A stretch of 20,114 bases of DNA from a virus: positions 1 to 20,114 of IMG/VR virus record IMGVR_UViG_3300037153_000181; one strand, given 5' to 3'. The position numbers and the translations under genes are program-made. The notes below the pieces were generated by a model. The model was not told where the DNA came from, searched no databases, and saw nothing but the letters and a program-made list of their open reading frames with translations. Shown in pieces: positions 11,333 to 20,114 of the stretch. Every line of letters starts with the position of its first letter. Within the stretch, counting starts at the first letter, position 1.

Positions 11333-13081
11333 GTGCCCACCTACCCGAGCCTCTACCGGGCCAAGGCCACCAACGTCACGGGCCTGGCCGTGATGGCCTT
11401 GATCCCCCAGGTGTTCGGGGAGGCGCCCGTCACGGTCACCCGCTTCCTCGGGTTGAAGCCGCTCAGCGGTGGCTTCGGGTGGGTGTTCTTCGAGGGTGGC
11501 AACCCTGAGTTCCCAGTGTGGGCAGCAGCAGGGACCGACATCGTCATCGGGCCCGGCGGCATCGACGGCGTGCAGACCATCGTCCCCGGCCCCGGCATCG
11601 GGGTCGACGCCACCGACCCCTTCCATCCCACGGTCAGCAACGTCGGCATCATCGACATCACGGGTGGCACCAACGTCTCGGTCGACAAGACCAACCCTCG
11701 CAACCCGATCATCAACGCAGCCGGCGGCTCGGGTGGCGGCACCGACGAAGTCTGGATCGGTGCCGACGACCCGATCATCGACCACCCCAGCATCGAGCTT
11801 TGGTACGACACCGACGACGACTACACCGCCGTCGACCGGGCGAACTTCTGGAACTCGGCGTGGGGTGTGCTCGCCACGGCCAAGGCCACCGCCTCCTCGT
11901 GGAACAACGCCACGGCCACGCTCACCACCATCACGGTGACGACGGGCTCCAACTTCATCCAGGCGCACCTCTACCCGACCCGCAAGTACCGCCTCTACTG
12001 GCAGTGCCAGGTGACGTCGACCGTGGCCGGCGACCAGATGGTCATCCAGCCGGTGGTCAACGGGGCGACGTACCCGGAGAACAACGTCGTTCGCATCGGC
12101 GCGGCGAACACGGGTGAGTTCACGTGGTTCGAGTCGTACTACTCGCCGCCCACCGAGGGCGACTACCAGATCTGGATGGCGGGCCGGCGTTCGTCGGGCA
12201 GCACCGGCACCGTCTCGGTCTTCAACATCGGCAACGCCCCGATGTGGCTGCTGATCGAGGACATGGGGCCGCTCTCCCCGGCGGCGGTCAACCCTCCCAC
12301 GGGCCAGCCGCAGATCGCCACCGCTGGCAACGCGCTGGGCATCGTGGCGGTCGGTTCGTTGAAGGCGTCGCCCGTGACTGGCGTGGTGAGCACGCCCACC
12401 GACGTCACTAACCCGATCTCGTTCACTACGGTGACCGGGAGGCGGTACCGGCTTCGCTTCAATGCTCGTGCCGTGGTTGGCTCGGCGGCGAACTCCTGCG
12501 TGCTGAACCTCTACATCGACAGCACCTTCGTTGGCGACGTCTACACGATGATCCCGGCGTCGAGCTACAACCATGTGCCGCTGGAGTGGGTCTTCAACGG
12601 CGATGGTGGGACGCACACCTACAACGTCGCCATCAGCAGCGGTGTGACCACGACGATGTACACCGATGGGGGGAGTTGCTATTTCTACATCGAGGACATC
12701 GGTCCGAACACGACCCCGGCGTTGCCGCTGCCCGCTGTTTCCGACGTGGTGTGGCTCCCGTTGTCACCGGCCACGGGCTGGGCAGCGCCTGGCGGCGCCA
12801 CCGAGTGGCCCGTCTCCGTCAGCAAGGTGGGCGACCAGGTCCGCATGCGCGGCTCGGTCCAGCGAACCACTGGTGCGATCGGCAACACGATCTTCCAACT
12901 CCCGGCGGGGTTCTACCGCACCGACGTGTTCATCCGGCTCAGCGGTGGTGGCTTCGAGGTCGGTGGCACGCCCTACGTGTGGCGGGCTGACCTCGCGACG
13001 GGCGGTGGCCTCGTCATCACTGGGTGCAGCAGCGCCTCCTCGAACTACTTCACCTTCAACGGCGTGACCTGGACGGTGTGA
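11333..13081 (+). CDS. Tail-fibre-like / minor tail protein with two beta domains
   Basis: 582 residues from GTG 11333 (GAGG 4 nt upstream). Residues 1-65 end in a FGWVFFEGGNPEFPVW segment that resembles OB-like domains of phage baseplate proteins. Residues 86-130 hold two short repeats, GPGIGVDATDPFHPTVSN and GTNVSVDKTNPRNPIIN, typical of fibre shafts. After a linker (DEVWIGADDP) come two beta-rich domains, about 170-313 and 322-457, each ending in IEDxGP. The C-terminal region (about 470-582; WPVSVSKVGDQVRMRG, LPAGF) resembles fibre tips. The domains are shared with the next gene. A role in host adsorption is inferred from domain style, as there is no match I can name. GC and codon use do not differ from neighbours. 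Confidence 0.75.
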   Translation: MPTYPSLYRAKATNVTGLAVMALIPQVFGEAPVTVTRFLGLKPLSGGFGWVFFEGGNPEFPVWAAAGTDIVIGPGGIDGVQTIVPGPGIGVDATDPFHPTVSNVGIIDITGGTNVSVDKTNPRNPIINAAGGSGGGTDEVWIGADDPIIDHPSIELWYDTDDDYTAVDRANFWNSAWGVLATAKATASSWNNATATLTTITVTTGSNFIQAHLYPTRKYRLYWQCQVTSTVAGDQMVIQPVVNGATYPENNVVRIGAANTGEFTWFESYYSPPTEGDYQIWMAGRRSSGSTGTVSVFNIGNAPMWLLIEDMGPLSPAAVNPPTGQPQIATAGNALGIVAVGSLKASPVTGVVSTPTDVTNPISFTTVTGRRYRLRFNARAVVGSAANSCVLNLYIDSTFVGDVYTMIPASSYNHVPLEWVFNGDGGTHTYNVAISSGVTTTMYTDGGSCYFYIEDIGPNTTPALPLPAVSDVVWLPLSPATGWAAPGGATEWPVSVSKVGDQVRMRGSVQRTTGAIGNTIFQLPAGFYRTDVFIRLSGGGFEVGGTPYVWRADLATGGGLVITGCSSASSNYFTFNGVTWTV

Positions 13082-13082
13082 T

Positions 13083-14357
13083 ATGGGCACGCTGAAAGTC
13101 CGCTATCCCACGGCCAACTGGTCGGCCATCCTCGGCTCCGGCCAGGATGCAGCGAACGTCGCTCGATGGAACGTGGCGTGGGGGGCAGTGGGGTGGACGT
13201 CGTACAACGGTGCGCTCGCTCTCAACGTGGACTCGGGGACCAGCCAGAACATGGGGCAGGTGACGTTCACGCCGGTCGCAGGGCGTCGGTACCGGTTCAG
13301 ACTGGTGCTCTCGGCCATCCCGAGCGCCGGCCCGCGTGGTCCGGTGAACCTCGGCGTCAACGGCGTGTCGGACTCGGCCTACGGCGGGCCATGGATGTTC
13401 TCCCCGTCGAGCCCCAACGAGTACACCACGCAGCAACTGGAGTGGAACCTGGACTTGAAGCCGTTGCCGGCTGGAGTTCCGGTCACTCTCTCGGCGTTGA
13501 TCACGTGCCGGGTGGCCGGCACGCTCTATCGAGACGTCGCCTACATCGAAGACCTCGGGCCGGTGGTGCAGGCATCGATCGCACCGCCGACCGCAGGGCC
13601 TCGTGTGGTGGCGTCGGGCAACGCCCTCGGCATCGTCGCGGTCGGATCGATGGTCGGCCAGAGCGGTGCGTCGATCGCCGCCGCCACGCTGACGCCGGTC
13701 AGCAACCCGACGTCAGCGTTCCTGGCTGTCGGTCGTCGCTATCGCATCTCGGGCTCGGTCCGAGCTACGTCAGCGGCTTCGGGTTCGGCCTACCTCCGTG
13801 TCACCGGACCGTCTTGGCTGCCGCAGCACGACACGTGGGTTGTCAACTCTGGCAGCTACGACCAGATCAACCTCGCCTTCCTGGTCGACGGCACTGGTCT
13901 GACCGAGACGTTCACGCTCAACTTCTACGGCAGCGCGGTCACCAGCATCTGGACCGAGCAGATCGTCAGCTACTTCTGGATCGAGGACGTCGGCCCCAAC
14001 AGCTACCCGGCGTTGCCGATCCCGGCCATCGACCCGCCCTTCACCCCAGCGGTGATGCAGAACGCCTGGCTCGGCAACGGTGGCTCCTGGGGCCCGGTGG
14101 GCTACCGCAAGATCGGTGACGAGGTGTCGCTGCGGGGGATGATCACCGGAGGAGTGGCCCTCACCACCGCCCTCACGCTCCCGCCTGGGTTCCGCCCCCC
14201 GTATCAGAAGGAGTACGTGTGCTCCGGCTGGTCAGCCTCCACTGGCCGACTGTTCACGATGGTGTCGATCTCTCAGGGTGGAGCGGTGACCCCGGAGAAC
14301 GGTGGTGCCTCCTTCAACGTCAACTTCGGGGAGATCAAGTTCTCCACGACACCATAG
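13083..14357 (+). CDS. Second tail-fibre-like protein, related to the preceding one
   Basis: 424 residues, starting 2 nt after the previous stop. Residues 25-160 (RWNVAWGAVGW, RRYRFR, IEDLGP) and 168-304 (NALGIVAVGSM, RRYRISGSV, IEDVGPN) align with the two beta domains of the upstream protein, including NALGIVAVGS present in both proteins and the following PALPxPA. The C-terminal part (330-424; WGPVGYRKIGDEVSLRG, LPPGFRPP) matches the upstream tip domain. The upstream protein's N-terminal 130 residues (OB-like and shaft repeats) are absent. The two genes thus arose by tandem duplication and diverged. The product probably sits on the same tail structure. Function in receptor binding is inference. 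Confidence 0.75.
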   Translation: MGTLKVRYPTANWSAILGSGQDAANVARWNVAWGAVGWTSYNGALALNVDSGTSQNMGQVTFTPVAGRRYRFRLVLSAIPSAGPRGPVNLGVNGVSDSAYGGPWMFSPSSPNEYTTQQLEWNLDLKPLPAGVPVTLSALITCRVAGTLYRDVAYIEDLGPVVQASIAPPTAGPRVVASGNALGIVAVGSMVGQSGASIAAATLTPVSNPTSAFLAVGRRYRISGSVRATSAASGSAYLRVTGPSWLPQHDTWVVNSGSYDQINLAFLVDGTGLTETFTLNFYGSAVTSIWTEQIVSYFWIEDVGPNSYPALPIPAIDPPFTPAVMQNAWLGNGGSWGPVGYRKIGDEVSLRGMITGGVALTTALTLPPGFRPPYQKEYVCSGWSASTGRLFTMVSISQGGAVTPENGGASFNVNFGEIKFSTTP

Positions 14358-16384: not shown

Positions 16385-16568
16385 GAACACCGCCAACCAT
16401 CCCAAGCGTCAGGTCGGGCGCGGCAACTTCGGCCAAGGTCCCAAGCTGTCCCGCGTCGCCGGGCAGTTGGTGTACTCCGAGAGCGTCACTCCCGAGATGG
16501 AGGAGCGCATGTCGCACTCCGAGTGGCTGAGCCACATGACGCAGAAGCACGGTCACTCCGCGCAGTGA
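16371..16568 (+). CDS. Small phage protein of unknown function
   Basis: 65 residues from GTG 16371 with AAGGGA 7-8 nt upstream. The N-terminus is basic and glycine/asparagine-rich (NHPKRQVGRGNFGQGP). The C-terminus has a short helix and several histidines (SEWLSHMTQKHGHSAQ). No family recognised. Supported by the ribosome-binding site and the GTGA overlap with the PKD gene. Confidence 0.62.
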   Translation: MARGENTANHPKRQVGRGNFGQGPKLSRVAGQLVYSESVTPEMEERMSHSEWLSHMTQKHGHSAQ

Positions 16569-17491
16569 GCTTCACGCCAGCGCCTGGTAGTGCCTTCCCC
16601 GGAGGGTTCTGGATGGATGGCCCGCCTCCGGTGGTCCCGGAGGCCGGGCAGTTCAGCATCCTCTACACGCCGGACCCCGACGACCCCAACATGACGTTGC
16701 TCTACTCGACCACCGAGTTGGACACCGGGCACACGATCCACTGGGACATGGGCGACGGCACCAAGGTCGACGCGCTGGCTGGCACCGATTGCCCGCACAC
16801 CTACGCCGAGGCTGGTGACTACGACGTCAGCGCTCGGTGTCATGGCATCACCGAGACGGTGACGGTGACGATCACGCCGCCCGATGAGCCGATCATCGTG
16901 CCCCTCACGCTCACGCTGATCACCCCGGCGTTCGCTGACTGGTGGACCAAGAACGGCCAGACGTTCGTGCTCCAGGGTGATGGCTTCCACGATGGCGTGA
17001 ACGTGCGCTTCCGGAACATGTACTCGGGCGCCGACGTGACGTTCCCGCTCGACCTGAGCGAGCCGCCGAGTGCCACGGCGGGCAGCGTCACGATCCCGCC
17101 GGGCTACCCGGCAGTCGGCAACGACATCGTCACCATGTGGCTCCAGAGCGACACCCAGGAGTCGAACTCGATGACGGTGTGCACGACGACGCAGACGATC
17201 AACAACACGGGCGCTCGCAAGATCGACCTGTTCCTCTTCAACGTGAAGTCCCAGCAGGCGTACCAGATCGACTGGGGCGACGGTTCGAAGACCAACACGT
17301 CGACCAATGCTCGTGGCGACACCAATCGCCCCCACACGTACGCAGCGCTGGGCAACTACACGATCACCATTCGAGAGGGAACGACGGGACCCGTCGTCTA
17401 CACGTTCCCCATCTCTGTAGCCACAGAGCTTGCTGATGAACCGTCCGCCTGGCCGTCCGAACTGCCCGAGGGCTGGACGCCCGATCCATAG
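16565..17491 (+). CDS. PKD-domain protein, probable tail/decoration or adhesion protein
   Basis: 308 residues from GTG 16565 (GTGA overlap). Two PKD-type beta-sandwich domains are visible: IHWDMGDGTKVD ... CPHTYAEAGDYDVSARC (about 55-95) and YQIDWGDGSKTN ... RPHTYAALGNYTITI (about 235-280), each with the family's WxxGDG and HxYxxxGxY landmarks. Between them, LTLITPAFADWW to NGQTFVLQGDGFHDG looks like an IPT/TIG-like immunoglobulin domain. Such domains are added to phage tail tube, capsid or fibre proteins and often bind sugars or proteins. No signal peptide is visible, which fits a virion protein more than a secreted one. Specific role is inference. Confidence 0.8.
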   Translation: MSFTPAPGSAFPGGFWMDGPPPVVPEAGQFSILYTPDPDDPNMTLLYSTTELDTGHTIHWDMGDGTKVDALAGTDCPHTYAEAGDYDVSARCHGITETVTVTITPPDEPIIVPLTLTLITPAFADWWTKNGQTFVLQGDGFHDGVNVRFRNMYSGADVTFPLDLSEPPSATAGSVTIPPGYPAVGNDIVTMWLQSDTQESNSMTVCTTTQTINNTGARKIDLFLFNVKSQQAYQIDWGDGSKTNTSTNARGDTNRPHTYAALGNYTITIREGTTGPVVYTFPISVATELADEPSAWPSELPEGWTPDP

Positions 17492-17871: not shown

Positions 17872-19041
17872 ATGGGATCGCTGTACTACGACCTCGTCAG
17901 CATCATCCGCAACGCAGGCGGACAGGTGCAGGAGAACTCCATCACCAACGGTTGGCAGAAGCGTGCACGTTCCAGCGGCGGCTTCTCTGCTCCTCCCATC
18001 TGCGTGTTCTGGCACCACACGGCGAGCCAGACCAGCGTCGAGAACGACCTGAACTACATGATCAAGACGTGCTCGGACAAGCCGGTCGGCAACCTGCTCA
18101 TCGACCGCTCGGGCATCGCCTGGCCGATCGCTGGCGGCGCAAGCAACTGTGCCGGCAAGGGCAACCAGATGCAGTTCAGTCGTGGAGTTGGTAGTGCCAA
18201 CAACGGCAATGTGTGGGGTTTCCAGATCGAGGTTGCCAACAATGGTGTGGGTGAGGCTTGGCCTCAGGCTCAAATCGATGCCTTCTTCCTCATCTCCAAT
18301 GCACTGAATGCATTCGTAGGAAACCAGCCAAGTGACATCACGAGTCACGCTCTCGGAAAGGGAAATGGCTACACCGACAGGAAGATCGACCCCGCTCGTG
18401 CCGAGGCCGTGCAGGGCCTGTGGGTTCCTCGCTCGGTCAACTCCTCGGGCACCTGGGACCTGGACGACATGCGGAACGAGTGCATCGCTCGGGCCAGTGG
18501 TGCCGGCCCCACGCCGACGCCACCCCCCGATCCGGGTCCGACGCCTGAGCCGACCCCGCCGGCCACCAACTGGCCGGCCTCGTTGACGTCGAGCCTCCCG
18601 TCGATCGCCAAGGGTGACTCGGGCTGGATGGTCAAGCGCATGCAGCACCTGCTCGCCGCGCATGGCTACATGAACGAGGGCAACGTCAACAACTACGACG
18701 GCGCGTGGGGCAATGGAACGGACGGTGCCAAGCAGCGCTTCGATGCCGACCACGGCCTCGGTGGCGGCAGCGACACGTCGTGCGGCCCCAAGTCGTGGGC
18801 TGCCCTCTGCGGTGACATGCCCAACCAGTCGGTCGGAGCGTCGGGCTTCAACGTGAAGATCATGCAGCACTTGCTGGCGTGCTGCGGCTTCATGAACGAA
18901 GCCAACACCGCCAACTACGACGGGGCCTGGGGTAGTGGCACGGACAAGGCCAAGGTCAACTTCGACAACGCCGCCGGGCTCACCCCATCTCCCCCCACCG
19001 ACTGCGGCCAGAAGTCCTGGACCGCACTCATGACGTCGTGA
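17872..19041 (+). CDS. Endolysin: N-acetylmuramoyl-L-alanine amidase with two C-terminal repeats
   Basis: 389 residues. Residues 40-180 form an Amidase_2/PGRP-type domain: VFWHHTAS (H48/H49), ISHA-like TSHALGKG (H159) and DRKIDPA (K171, D173), which match the zinc ligands and the catalytic lysine two residues before the last ligand in T7 lysozyme. A proline-rich linker (PTPTPPPDPGPTPEP) leads to two repeats, about 244-313 and 320-388, each with KGD/GASG, xKxMQHLLA, NYDGAWG-x-GTD and CG-x-KSW, which resemble peptidoglycan-binding domains. It cuts the bond between MurNAc and the stem peptide, releasing progeny. There is no signal peptide, so export should need the holin genes just downstream. 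DNA around 18181-18360 is about 53% GC, against 65% on both sides. Confidence 0.9.
   Translation: MGSLYYDLVSIIRNAGGQVQENSITNGWQKRARSSGGFSAPPICVFWHHTASQTSVENDLNYMIKTCSDKPVGNLLIDRSGIAWPIAGGASNCAGKGNQMQFSRGVGSANNGNVWGFQIEVANNGVGEAWPQAQIDAFFLISNALNAFVGNQPSDITSHALGKGNGYTDRKIDPARAEAVQGLWVPRSVNSSGTWDLDDMRNECIARASGAGPTPTPPPDPGPTPEPTPPATNWPASLTSSLPSIAKGDSGWMVKRMQHLLAAHGYMNEGNVNNYDGAWGNGTDGAKQRFDADHGLGGGSDTSCGPKSWAALCGDMPNQSVGASGFNVKIMQHLLACCGFMNEANTANYDGAWGSGTDKAKVNFDNAAGLTPSPPTDCGQKSWTALMTS
18181..18360. other. Low-GC patch inside the amidase domain
   Basis: Counted GC is about 95 of 180 (53%), while the 60-nt blocks at 18061-18120 and 18421-18480 both count 39 of 60 (65%). Third positions here often end in T or A (GGT, AAT, CAA, GGA), unlike the flanks. 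The reading frame is intact. This suggests a recombined segment. Confidence 0.55.
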
Positions 19042-19307
19042 GCGCTGATCCCACGCCGGTCCACCCGACGCCGGTTCGCAGCCTCTGGCAACGCGAGCCG
19101 GTACGGGTGATGAACGCCGTGTTCACACTCATCGCTGCCATCAACGCCGTGTTGCTCGGTGCCGGCGTGTACTCCGGCGCCGTGGCCGGCATCATCACCG
19201 GCATCATCGCCGCCCTGGCTGCGTTCGTGAACGAGATCTTCACCCGGGCCGAGGTGGTTCCGCTCGTACCGCTCCAGGATCTGGCCGAGGCCGACAGGGC
19301 GGCCTGA
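19038..19307 (+). CDS. Holin-like membrane protein, two helices
   Basis: 89 residues from GTG 19038 (GTGA overlap with the endolysin). Two hydrophobic segments: VMNAVFTLIAAINAVLLGAG (about 24-44) and AVAGIITGIIAALAAFVNEI (about 48-68), with a short turn between. The N-terminus is short and polar, the C-terminus acidic. Size, two transmembrane helices and placement directly after the endolysin fit a class II-type holin that opens the membrane for lysis. Confidence 0.75.
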   Translation: MSADPTPVHPTPVRSLWQREPVRVMNAVFTLIAAINAVLLGAGVYSGAVAGIITGIIAALAAFVNEIFTRAEVVPLVPLQDLAEADRAA

Positions 19308-19624
19308 TGGCGAAGGGCCCCGGGTTCCCTCGCCCCCCGATCAAGACCATGACGGACTTCGTCGTGTTCAGCTTCGTGACCATCGTGGTGATCATGTTGG
19401 TGGGGGGTGTGAGCGCCTTCATCATCCTGTCCTTCAAAGATCCCGATCGGGACATGAGTCGCGGCATCGCCATCTTCTCGGACATCACCACCAGCCTGAT
19501 CAGCGCTCTGGTCGGCTTCCTGGCCGGGAAGGGGCAGGGCGCTGCCGAGGCGCAGGAGCGTGAGATCCAGCGGGCCAAGGACGCCAAGGACGAGCAGTCC
19601 AAGCCACCACCCCCGCCGCCATGA
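19307..19624 (+). CDS. Second holin-like membrane protein
   Basis: 105 residues, ATG 19307 overlapping the previous stop (TGATG). Two hydrophobic segments, [18 protein letters not shown] (about 24-42) and [17 protein letters not shown] (about 58-74), then a charged helix ([17 protein letters not shown]) and a terminal run of prolines. It is different in sequence from the first holin-like protein. Two adjacent genes of this type can be a holin pair or a holin and antiholin. It may also be an unrelated membrane protein. Confidence 0.65.
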
Positions 19625-20114
19625 CGCCTCTCCAGGGCGTAGTGGCGATCGGCTCGATGTTGGCCGTGGTCGGCATGGGCGTTGTCTCAGGATTGGCGGA
19701 TGCCAACGTGACGACGCCGACGACCACGACGGTCGTGGCGGGTCAGGGCCCCTCGGGGCCAGAAGGTCCGACGGGCCCGTCGGGGCCGGAAGGGCCAGCC
19801 GGACAACCGGGCGATACCGGGGTATCGGGCGCTATCGGCCCAGCAGGGCCGCAGGGCGAACCAGGGCCTGTTGGGCCTCAGGGCCTTCCGGGGGTAGACG
19901 GCCAAGATGGAGCACCAGGCGCAACAGGAGCGCAAGGCCCTGCGGGTCCAGCGGGTGCGGTCGGCGCGGCTGGGCCAGTTGGCCCAGCGGGCCAGACAGG
20001 CCCACCTGGAGCAACAGGCGCACAAGGCGATCCAGGCCCGCAAGGTGAACCAGGTCCACCGGGTAGTGATGGCTCGCCGGGCGCTCAGGGAGAAGTGGGG
20101 CCGCAAGGGGAAAT
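19621..20114 (+). CDS. Collagen-like protein with N-terminal hydrophobic segment (3' truncated)
   Basis: Frame open from ATG 19621 to the window end, 164 complete codons; ATGA overlap with the previous gene. Residues 5-27 are hydrophobic ([20 protein letters not shown]) and end in ADA, so a signal peptide or membrane anchor. A short Thr-rich linker (TTPTTTTVV) follows, then 40 complete uninterrupted Gly-X-Y triplets from residue 43 on, with many GPx, GAx and GEP units that favour a trimeric triple helix. Phage collagen-like proteins are usually fibre shafts without a hydrophobic N-terminus. Here the location after two holin-like genes and the anchor suggest an exported or membrane-bound product. 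What lies C-terminal is not in the window. Confidence 0.78.
19747..20114 (+). repeat. Collagen-like Gly-X-Y triplet repeat tract
   Basis: A 9-nt periodic coding repeat (GGN at every third codon), 40 complete triplets plus a partial one at the window edge, no interruption. Codon usage varies within the triplets, so the tract is old rather than a recent slippage product. Confidence 0.85.

Follow-up and report, generated by a model that had tools for sequence, protein, structure and literature searches.

A conserved collagen-like protein with a hydrophobic N-terminus, encoded in overlap with holin-like genes in an uncultured virus and its relatives

A collagen-like protein with a hydrophobic N-terminus, encoded immediately after holin-like genes at the end of an uncultured virus record, belongs to a real and conserved group of proteins that is unlike the ordinary collagens of phages, which are usually regarded as tail fibres. 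Collagen stalks, transmembrane (TM) anchors and holin-like genes are each known; what is new is their combination and the constancy with which it is found. We consider it highly probable that these proteins are exported and anchored, and we are equally confident that the anchored collagen is not a virion fibre. That it acts at lysis is somewhat favoured by the evidence laid out below.

The record in question, IMGVR_UViG_3300037153_000181, is linear and is considered here over its whole length of 20,114 bases (the window). At its right end four genes on the plus strand overlap in series. The first (17872..19041) encodes an endolysin which, judged by its PHROG and Pfam matches, is amidase-like towards the N-terminus and carries repeats for peptidoglycan binding at the C-terminus (PHROG endolysin 1493 at 4e-12; PG_binding_1 at 2e-5); Amidase_2 is matched by the endolysins of the relatives L009, L003 and L004. 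It shares four nucleotides (GTGA, 19038-19041) with the gene for holin-like protein 1 (19038..19307), which has a GTG start and whose 89-residue product contains an REPVR motif and two hydrophobic segments. This protein is kept in eight viruses at 53-80% identity, and its match to PHROG holin 9752 has an E-value of 0.006 for the window and 0.00036 for the relative in L011. Holin-like protein 2 (19307..19624; 105 residues with a charged C-terminus) follows with an overlap of a single nucleotide (TGATG, shared base 19307), and its own stop overlaps the start of the collagen-like gene by four (ATGA, 19621-19624). AlphaFold2 predicts two helices in it, at residues 13-44 and 51-97 (pLDDT 83.6); its family numbers 15 and no PHROG match was obtained. 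Both proteins are small, with two hydrophobic segments or predicted helices, and lie beside an endolysin, as is expected of holins, and the label ‘holin-like’ seems a fair one for each, if weak as a statement of homology. The gene order, and the coupling by overlaps of 1-4 nt that the preliminary description had reported from the letters of the window, are thus as described. No promoter or terminator patterns stood above background. A gene for a PKD-domain protein (16523-17491) separates the endolysin from the tail-like genes.

The collagen-like gene itself (19621..20114; Pfam Collagen at 1.5e-20) is incomplete, its frame being still open at base 20114, the last, after 164 codons. A hydrophobic anchor or signal occupies about residues 6-25 (19636..19695), with a Kyte-Doolittle mean of 2.26 over the 17 residues at its peak (6-22), and is followed by a Thr-rich linker containing TTPTTTTVV (residues 26-42; 19696..19746) and then by the collagen stalk (19747..20114), the tip of which is lost at the contig end. 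The hydrophobic N-terminus bears out an earlier proposal of a signal peptide or anchor, and the Gly-X-Y run is indeed unbroken as had been stated, although it comprises 41 triplets rather than 40, beginning at codon 43 and still running where the contig stops. With these triplets and its Pfam match the protein has the shaft of a phage collagen tail fibre; as a triple helix the part seen would measure at least 35 nm. Neither a cysteine nor a lipobox is seen in the window's part of the protein. Tandem arrays in the stalk DNA are short and weak, the largest being 63 bp at 71% match, and simple DNA duplication was therefore rejected as the source of the repeat. The contigs of both the window (20114) and L004 (6984) end within or soon after the collagen stalk, which may reflect the difficulty of assembling repeats; in L004 the final residues resemble no tip.

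Since the window ends at 20114, the sequence beyond was taken from relatives. Searches with holin-like 1, the tip and holin-like 2 gathered 15 members including the window, here called type A, and in the relatives anchor and stalk are likewise joined by a linker rich in Thr, Pro and Ser. In complete type A proteins the stalk is followed by only 27-33 residues, with two cysteines among them, and then by the stop, as in L011 (CGAGFHLEVVSVHQRQPVDGDLEITVCAAD) and L034 (ACPAGFAPGTLTLNSPGGQVTLYTCLG). Cys, Gly and Cys are invariant across 13 tips, and an AlphaFold2 monomer model of the tip is a two-strand beta hairpin (mean pLDDT 92.7). Pooled over five tips, pS is 0.75 against a pN of 0.22, and the tip appears to evolve under purifying selection. 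Tip sequences vary between groups and the architecture stays constant. A C-terminal fibre-tip domain, which the preliminary description had named as the mark of an ordinary tail fibre, is absent from every complete relative, where the short Cys-pair hairpin stands instead; nor was a C-terminal receptor-binding or chaperone domain found, the tips of the relatives being only 27-41 residues long. As the complete relatives have no fibre-tip domain, the window protein, whose own tip is cut off, probably has none either. At 0.286 nm per residue, the stalks span 27.5-56 nm in complete type A proteins and 21-54 nm in type B proteins (see below). Searches with the tip gave a chance match or none among cultured phages and, as a profile against PDB sequences, chance matches only.

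The genes upstream of type A collagens are of several kinds. In ten of the 15 members (the window, L002, L004, L005, L008, L009, L014, L015, L033 and L034) family matches support a part for the upstream gene in binding or hydrolysing the wall, the match in L015 being a weak one to VanY. The upstream gene has no family match in L026 and L035, and no lysin was recognised directly upstream in L011, L027 and L030. Since several of the type A lysins are of different types, the unit of membrane protein and collagen seems to move among lysins. L014 and L011 encode similar small proteins (AVDDG..NLN.ADIFFLI), each with two hydrophobic stretches, after the collagen in L014 (5105-5293) and before holin-like 1 in L011 (3517-3714); the gene looks like one that has been shuffled within the lysis cassette.

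The constancy of the arrangement can be seen without using collagen sequence at all. A search with an alignment of holin-like 2, a query that contains none, retrieved 12 loci on ten distinct viruses (there being two near-duplicate pairs), and directly downstream in all 12 is a protein in which a hydrophobic N-terminus is followed by a linker, the collagen and a Cys tip. The junction between the two genes is a stop-start overlap in 11 loci and a 1-nt step in the other. As a single-sequence query, holin-like 2 retrieved no relatives. For comparison, a background of viral collagen ORFs, some of them near-duplicates, was drawn from a broad scan with one query pattern. Of these ORFs, 75 begin within their contig, and eight of the 75 have a hydrophobic N-terminus, six of the eight being of the anchored type; by eye, one of the remaining two is marginal and one is signal-peptide-like. 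Scored on the simple Kyte-Doolittle scale rather than by a trained predictor, a hydrophobic N-terminus is thus present in 30/30 members of types A and B, none of which begins with the soluble, TM-free N-terminus of a virion-binding protein, against 2/69 other viral collagens. Similarly, a C-terminal Cys pair is found in all 28 complete members and in one of 62 distinct other viral collagen ORFs. Three of the viruses (L009, L011 and L034) encode additional collagen proteins elsewhere, with soluble starts and no Cys tip, one of them ending by eye in an S74-like chaperone domain, so that one virus can use two kinds of collagen. The hydrophobic N-terminus, Cys-pair tip and fixed neighbour support the suggestion, first made for the window, that its protein differs from the usual fibre-shaft collagens, and the proposed link to small membrane and lysis genes has proved to extend across many viruses.

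The charges flanking the hydrophobic segment are informative as to its orientation. In all 15 type A proteins the hydrophobic stretch is preceded by a charge of at most +1 and followed, over 12 residues, by one of -1 to -4 (0 and -1, respectively, in the window), and in type B a mostly positive charge precedes the TM segment. Under the well-established positive-inside rule, and by that charge rule only, the flanks of both types point to an N-in/C-out topology. The conserved Cys pair would fit an oxidising place outside the cytoplasm. Type A segments begin 3-9 residues from the N-terminus with hardly any charge, and some have AxA-like ends (GLADA-N in the window, QALA-D in L011). A single Cys lies within the anchors of L002, L005, L008, L009, L014, L015, L026, L027, L030 and L033, in contexts such as LSIC, LSLC, VGCG and LTAC, of which only LTAC-G in L030 resembles the usual lipobox; some type A members might be lipid-anchored rather than TM-anchored. 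Compared with those of type B, the anchors of type A also contain more Gly, Ala and Ser and are less hydrophobic, and they recall releasable SAR segments.

Type B comprises L003, a group of Arthrobacter phages and uncultured relatives. Here the N-terminus consists of 9-39 residues, usually basic, before a strong TM segment and often a coil; the collagen stretches are often interrupted by ‘YC..G.C.G’ modules and the proteins end in a Cys-pair tip (for example GTTYTCTPNPPGSTTYTCEP). Among the cultured members are Zaheer gp24, Ryan gp24, Popper gp22, Shoya gp20, Sarge gp21, MrSmee gp21, Maja gp21, Constance gp24 and PeggyLeg03 gp24. The type B collagen gene is directly preceded by one for a small TM protein, and an endolysin gene lies directly downstream in Zaheer, Popper, Sarge, MrSmee and Constance or, in Shoya and Maja, beyond a single small intervening gene. 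In the uncultured L037, L040 and L041 a Peptidase_M23 gene adjoins the collagen cassette and in L044 an alpha/beta hydrolase is encoded upstream; the neighbouring gene in L038 and L042 has no Pfam match. KellEzio gp39 and Kitkat gp40 share the TM segment, collagen, Cys-pair tip and preceding one-TM protein, all following tail genes, but differ in having no lysin adjacent to the collagen; the endolysin of KellEzio is gene 13 (PMC5513430). The pairing of a small membrane protein with an anchored collagen is therefore more constant than the endolysin neighbourhood. In L003 (6575-7573) and L018 (4557-5486) Cys-pair modules of the form ‘AAV..YC..G.C.GP’ alternate with collagen stretches, and are perhaps small disulphide knots that hold three chains in register.

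Types A and B are alike in architecture. The Arthrobacter proteins have in common with the window type a TM anchor, collagen, Cys-pair tip, upstream small membrane protein and overlapping genes; they differ in the basic N-terminal tail, the coil, the YC..G.C modules and in that the collagen gene comes before the endolysin gene, not after it. No sequence homology to the window protein was found outside the repeat. Searches of cultured phages with tblastn gave no match to the amidase, holin-like 1 or holin-like 2, and none to the type A collagen at E <= 1e-3, for which low-complexity masking may be responsible. A match to a ‘holin’ of Arthrobacter phage BarretLemon was discarded since it lies antisense to an annotated gene. 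No prophage was found, either with holin-like 1 or with the tip as query, in one genome each of 84,980 species. The viral DNA polymerase has only distant matches, the best being to Streptomyces phages at 29-30%.

These proteins have been deposited under several names. In close relatives the type B gene has been called ‘minor tail protein’, ‘hypothetical protein’ and ‘membrane protein’ by different depositors, and the RefSeq name of the KellEzio and Kitkat collagen is ‘tail fiber protein’. PHROG matches of the anchored collagens are mostly to tail fibre families and fall mostly within the collagen repeat, so that they say little about function, and they were set aside as evidence of a virion role. 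Anchored collagens named ‘minor tail’ or ‘tail fiber’ are to be found in PHROG 1806 and in MZ150784, MZ274308, MN908684, OK040780, PV089521, MK279899, NC_031231 and NC_031254. The tail names are likely to be a systematic misannotation, one that probably arose from family matches to the collagen repeat. If some phage collagens are in fact host-envelope proteins, repeat-based database names are wrong for the whole class.

Among known systems, the nearest precedent would appear, by analogy, to be LysZ of Corynebacterium phages, a 177-residue protein with one TM segment and N-in/C-out topology for which a spanin-like role has been proposed (PMC13056207). Compared by description, the anchored collagen resembles it in its single TM segment, its topology as judged by the charge rule, its place in a lysis cassette and its putative role as a lysis-stage envelope factor in a Gram-positive host; LysZ differs in its length and in the lipid-anchored glycans reported, and collagen is not mentioned (PMC13056207). 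The overlapping small membrane pair LysF1a and LysF1b of F1 mycobacteriophages is like holin-like 1 and 2, but LysF1b has one TM segment where holin-like 2 has two predicted helices, and the study of that pair does not mention a collagen gene (PMC13056207). Collagen likewise goes unmentioned in two surveys, one of Gordonia lysis cassettes, the other of Arthrobacter phages, and searches of an open-access library turned up no description of anchored collagens in lysis cassettes. C-terminal trimerisation modules (PfC) are known in phage collagens (PMC3368898), and the EPcl proteins of E. coli prophages combine a Gly-X-Y trimer with such a module, as the anchored collagen may; EPcl is, however, described as a phage tail protein, the word ‘transmembrane’ being absent from the text (PMC3368898). 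The bacterial Scl adhesins are surface-displayed collagen rods tied to the envelope, as the window type would be, and NCBIfam Scl models do match the repeat, but the scores, 59-84 bits, fall far below the cut-offs of 325-400, the complete relatives end in a Cys-pair tip, and the Scl combination of a score above cut-off with a C-terminal LPXTG anchor was not found. The transmembrane collagens of animals are analogous rods displayed on a surface. With regard to spanins, the anchor and the stalk length of the collagen rod would fit a reach from the inner membrane out across the envelope; a motif resembling the usual lipobox (LTAC) is seen only in L030.

Because one run of overlapping genes supplies the holins and endolysin as well, the anchored collagen is most simply read as a lysis-stage envelope factor. 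A gene of wall-hydrolase type adjoins the cassette in most members. Against this reading stand KellEzio and Kitkat, with no lysin adjacent, and L011, L027 and L030, with none recognised directly upstream, as does the position of the lysis cassettes amid tail genes, from which joint expression with virion genes would follow too. We judge the chain of argument up to this point, that is, an outward-facing collagen rod anchored in the membrane with a holin-like partner and an envelope role at the lysis stage, to be evenly balanced between right and wrong. The lysis role is read from gene context and the mechanical step is hypothetical: the N-terminus would remain in the host cytoplasmic membrane while three chains were exported and joined at the C-terminal hairpin tip. 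The tip may nucleate the trimer as a foldon does or act as a binding head, or do both, and would be stapled by disulphides outside the cell; the stalk would zip from there back towards the anchor, giving a rod able to cross the Gram-positive wall. At lysis this rod would couple the holin-disrupted membrane to the outer wall layers and, once the endolysin had cut the peptidoglycan, would help to break or clear those layers, in a manner spanin-like or LysZ-like with a different architecture. The walls of Gram-positive cells are of about the same thickness as the stalks are long, so that lengths of 21-56 nm fit a wall-spanning rod, which is not proof of one. A part in spanning or disrupting the wall is accordingly put forward as a tentative suggestion, and we would be more hesitant still in claiming a class of lysis protein so far unrecognised in phages, a membrane-anchored collagen trimer that spans the wall, performs a spanin-like last step with a holin-like partner, is widely mislabelled as a tail protein and belongs to phages of Gram-positive, probably actinobacterial, hosts.

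An exported rod of this length would reach the surface, and could alternatively present its tip on the infected cell and so block the adsorption of other phages, or the sticking of progeny to debris, with no involvement in wall breakage. Tips that differ between groups on an unchanging architecture are what a variable binding head would show. Nevertheless, constant coupling to a holin-like gene would be unexpected for an exclusion gene, since these are usually expressed early or from the prophage, and a scan of a defence-system library produced no match, itself weak evidence; we regard such a barrier as improbable. Rather less credit is given to the idea that the collagen partners holin-like 2 and sets the timing of lysis through an outer domain that senses the wall or the environment, in the way that T4 RI acts on holin T by its periplasmic domain. 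The greater constancy of the membrane protein and collagen pair than of the lysin, and its retention in KellEzio at a distance from the lysin, speak for such regulation, but a stalk of 28-56 nm is far beyond what a sensor needs.

The two remaining explanations fit least well. An ordinary or minor tail fibre, its hydrophobic N-terminus docked in the tail, would account for a gene that comes last in the tail region, for the predominance of tail fibre families among PHROG matches and for the name chosen by several depositors. However, the TM-type N-terminus of all members, with a basic N-side in type B, the lack of an ordinary fibre-tip domain, the separate soluble-start collagens of three phages, the position of the PHROG matches mostly in the repeat and the one depositor who writes of a membrane protein together make a virion role quite unlikely. 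Least credible to us is a trimer that leaves the cell after cleavage of the N-terminal helix as a signal peptide, for example to coat debris or bind to the surroundings. The position of type A segments near the N-terminus, their scant charge and the AxA-like ends of some are in keeping with cleavage, but several type A members have no AxA site and type B keeps 9-39 residues before a strong TM segment, as is typical of an uncleaved anchor.

Should some phage collagens prove to be host-envelope proteins, the extra membrane genes often seen in the lysis cassettes of phages of Gram-positive hosts would gain a concrete partner, and whether a phage needs a separate step of wall crossing for its release from a thick-walled host becomes a testable question, one that Arthrobacter phages of matching architecture make feasible to address in the laboratory. 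Elsewhere in the window, two adjacent genes for putative minor tail proteins (11333-13081 and 13083-14357) are paralogues, with 37% identity over 222 residues, and a domain is apparently repeated inside each of them.
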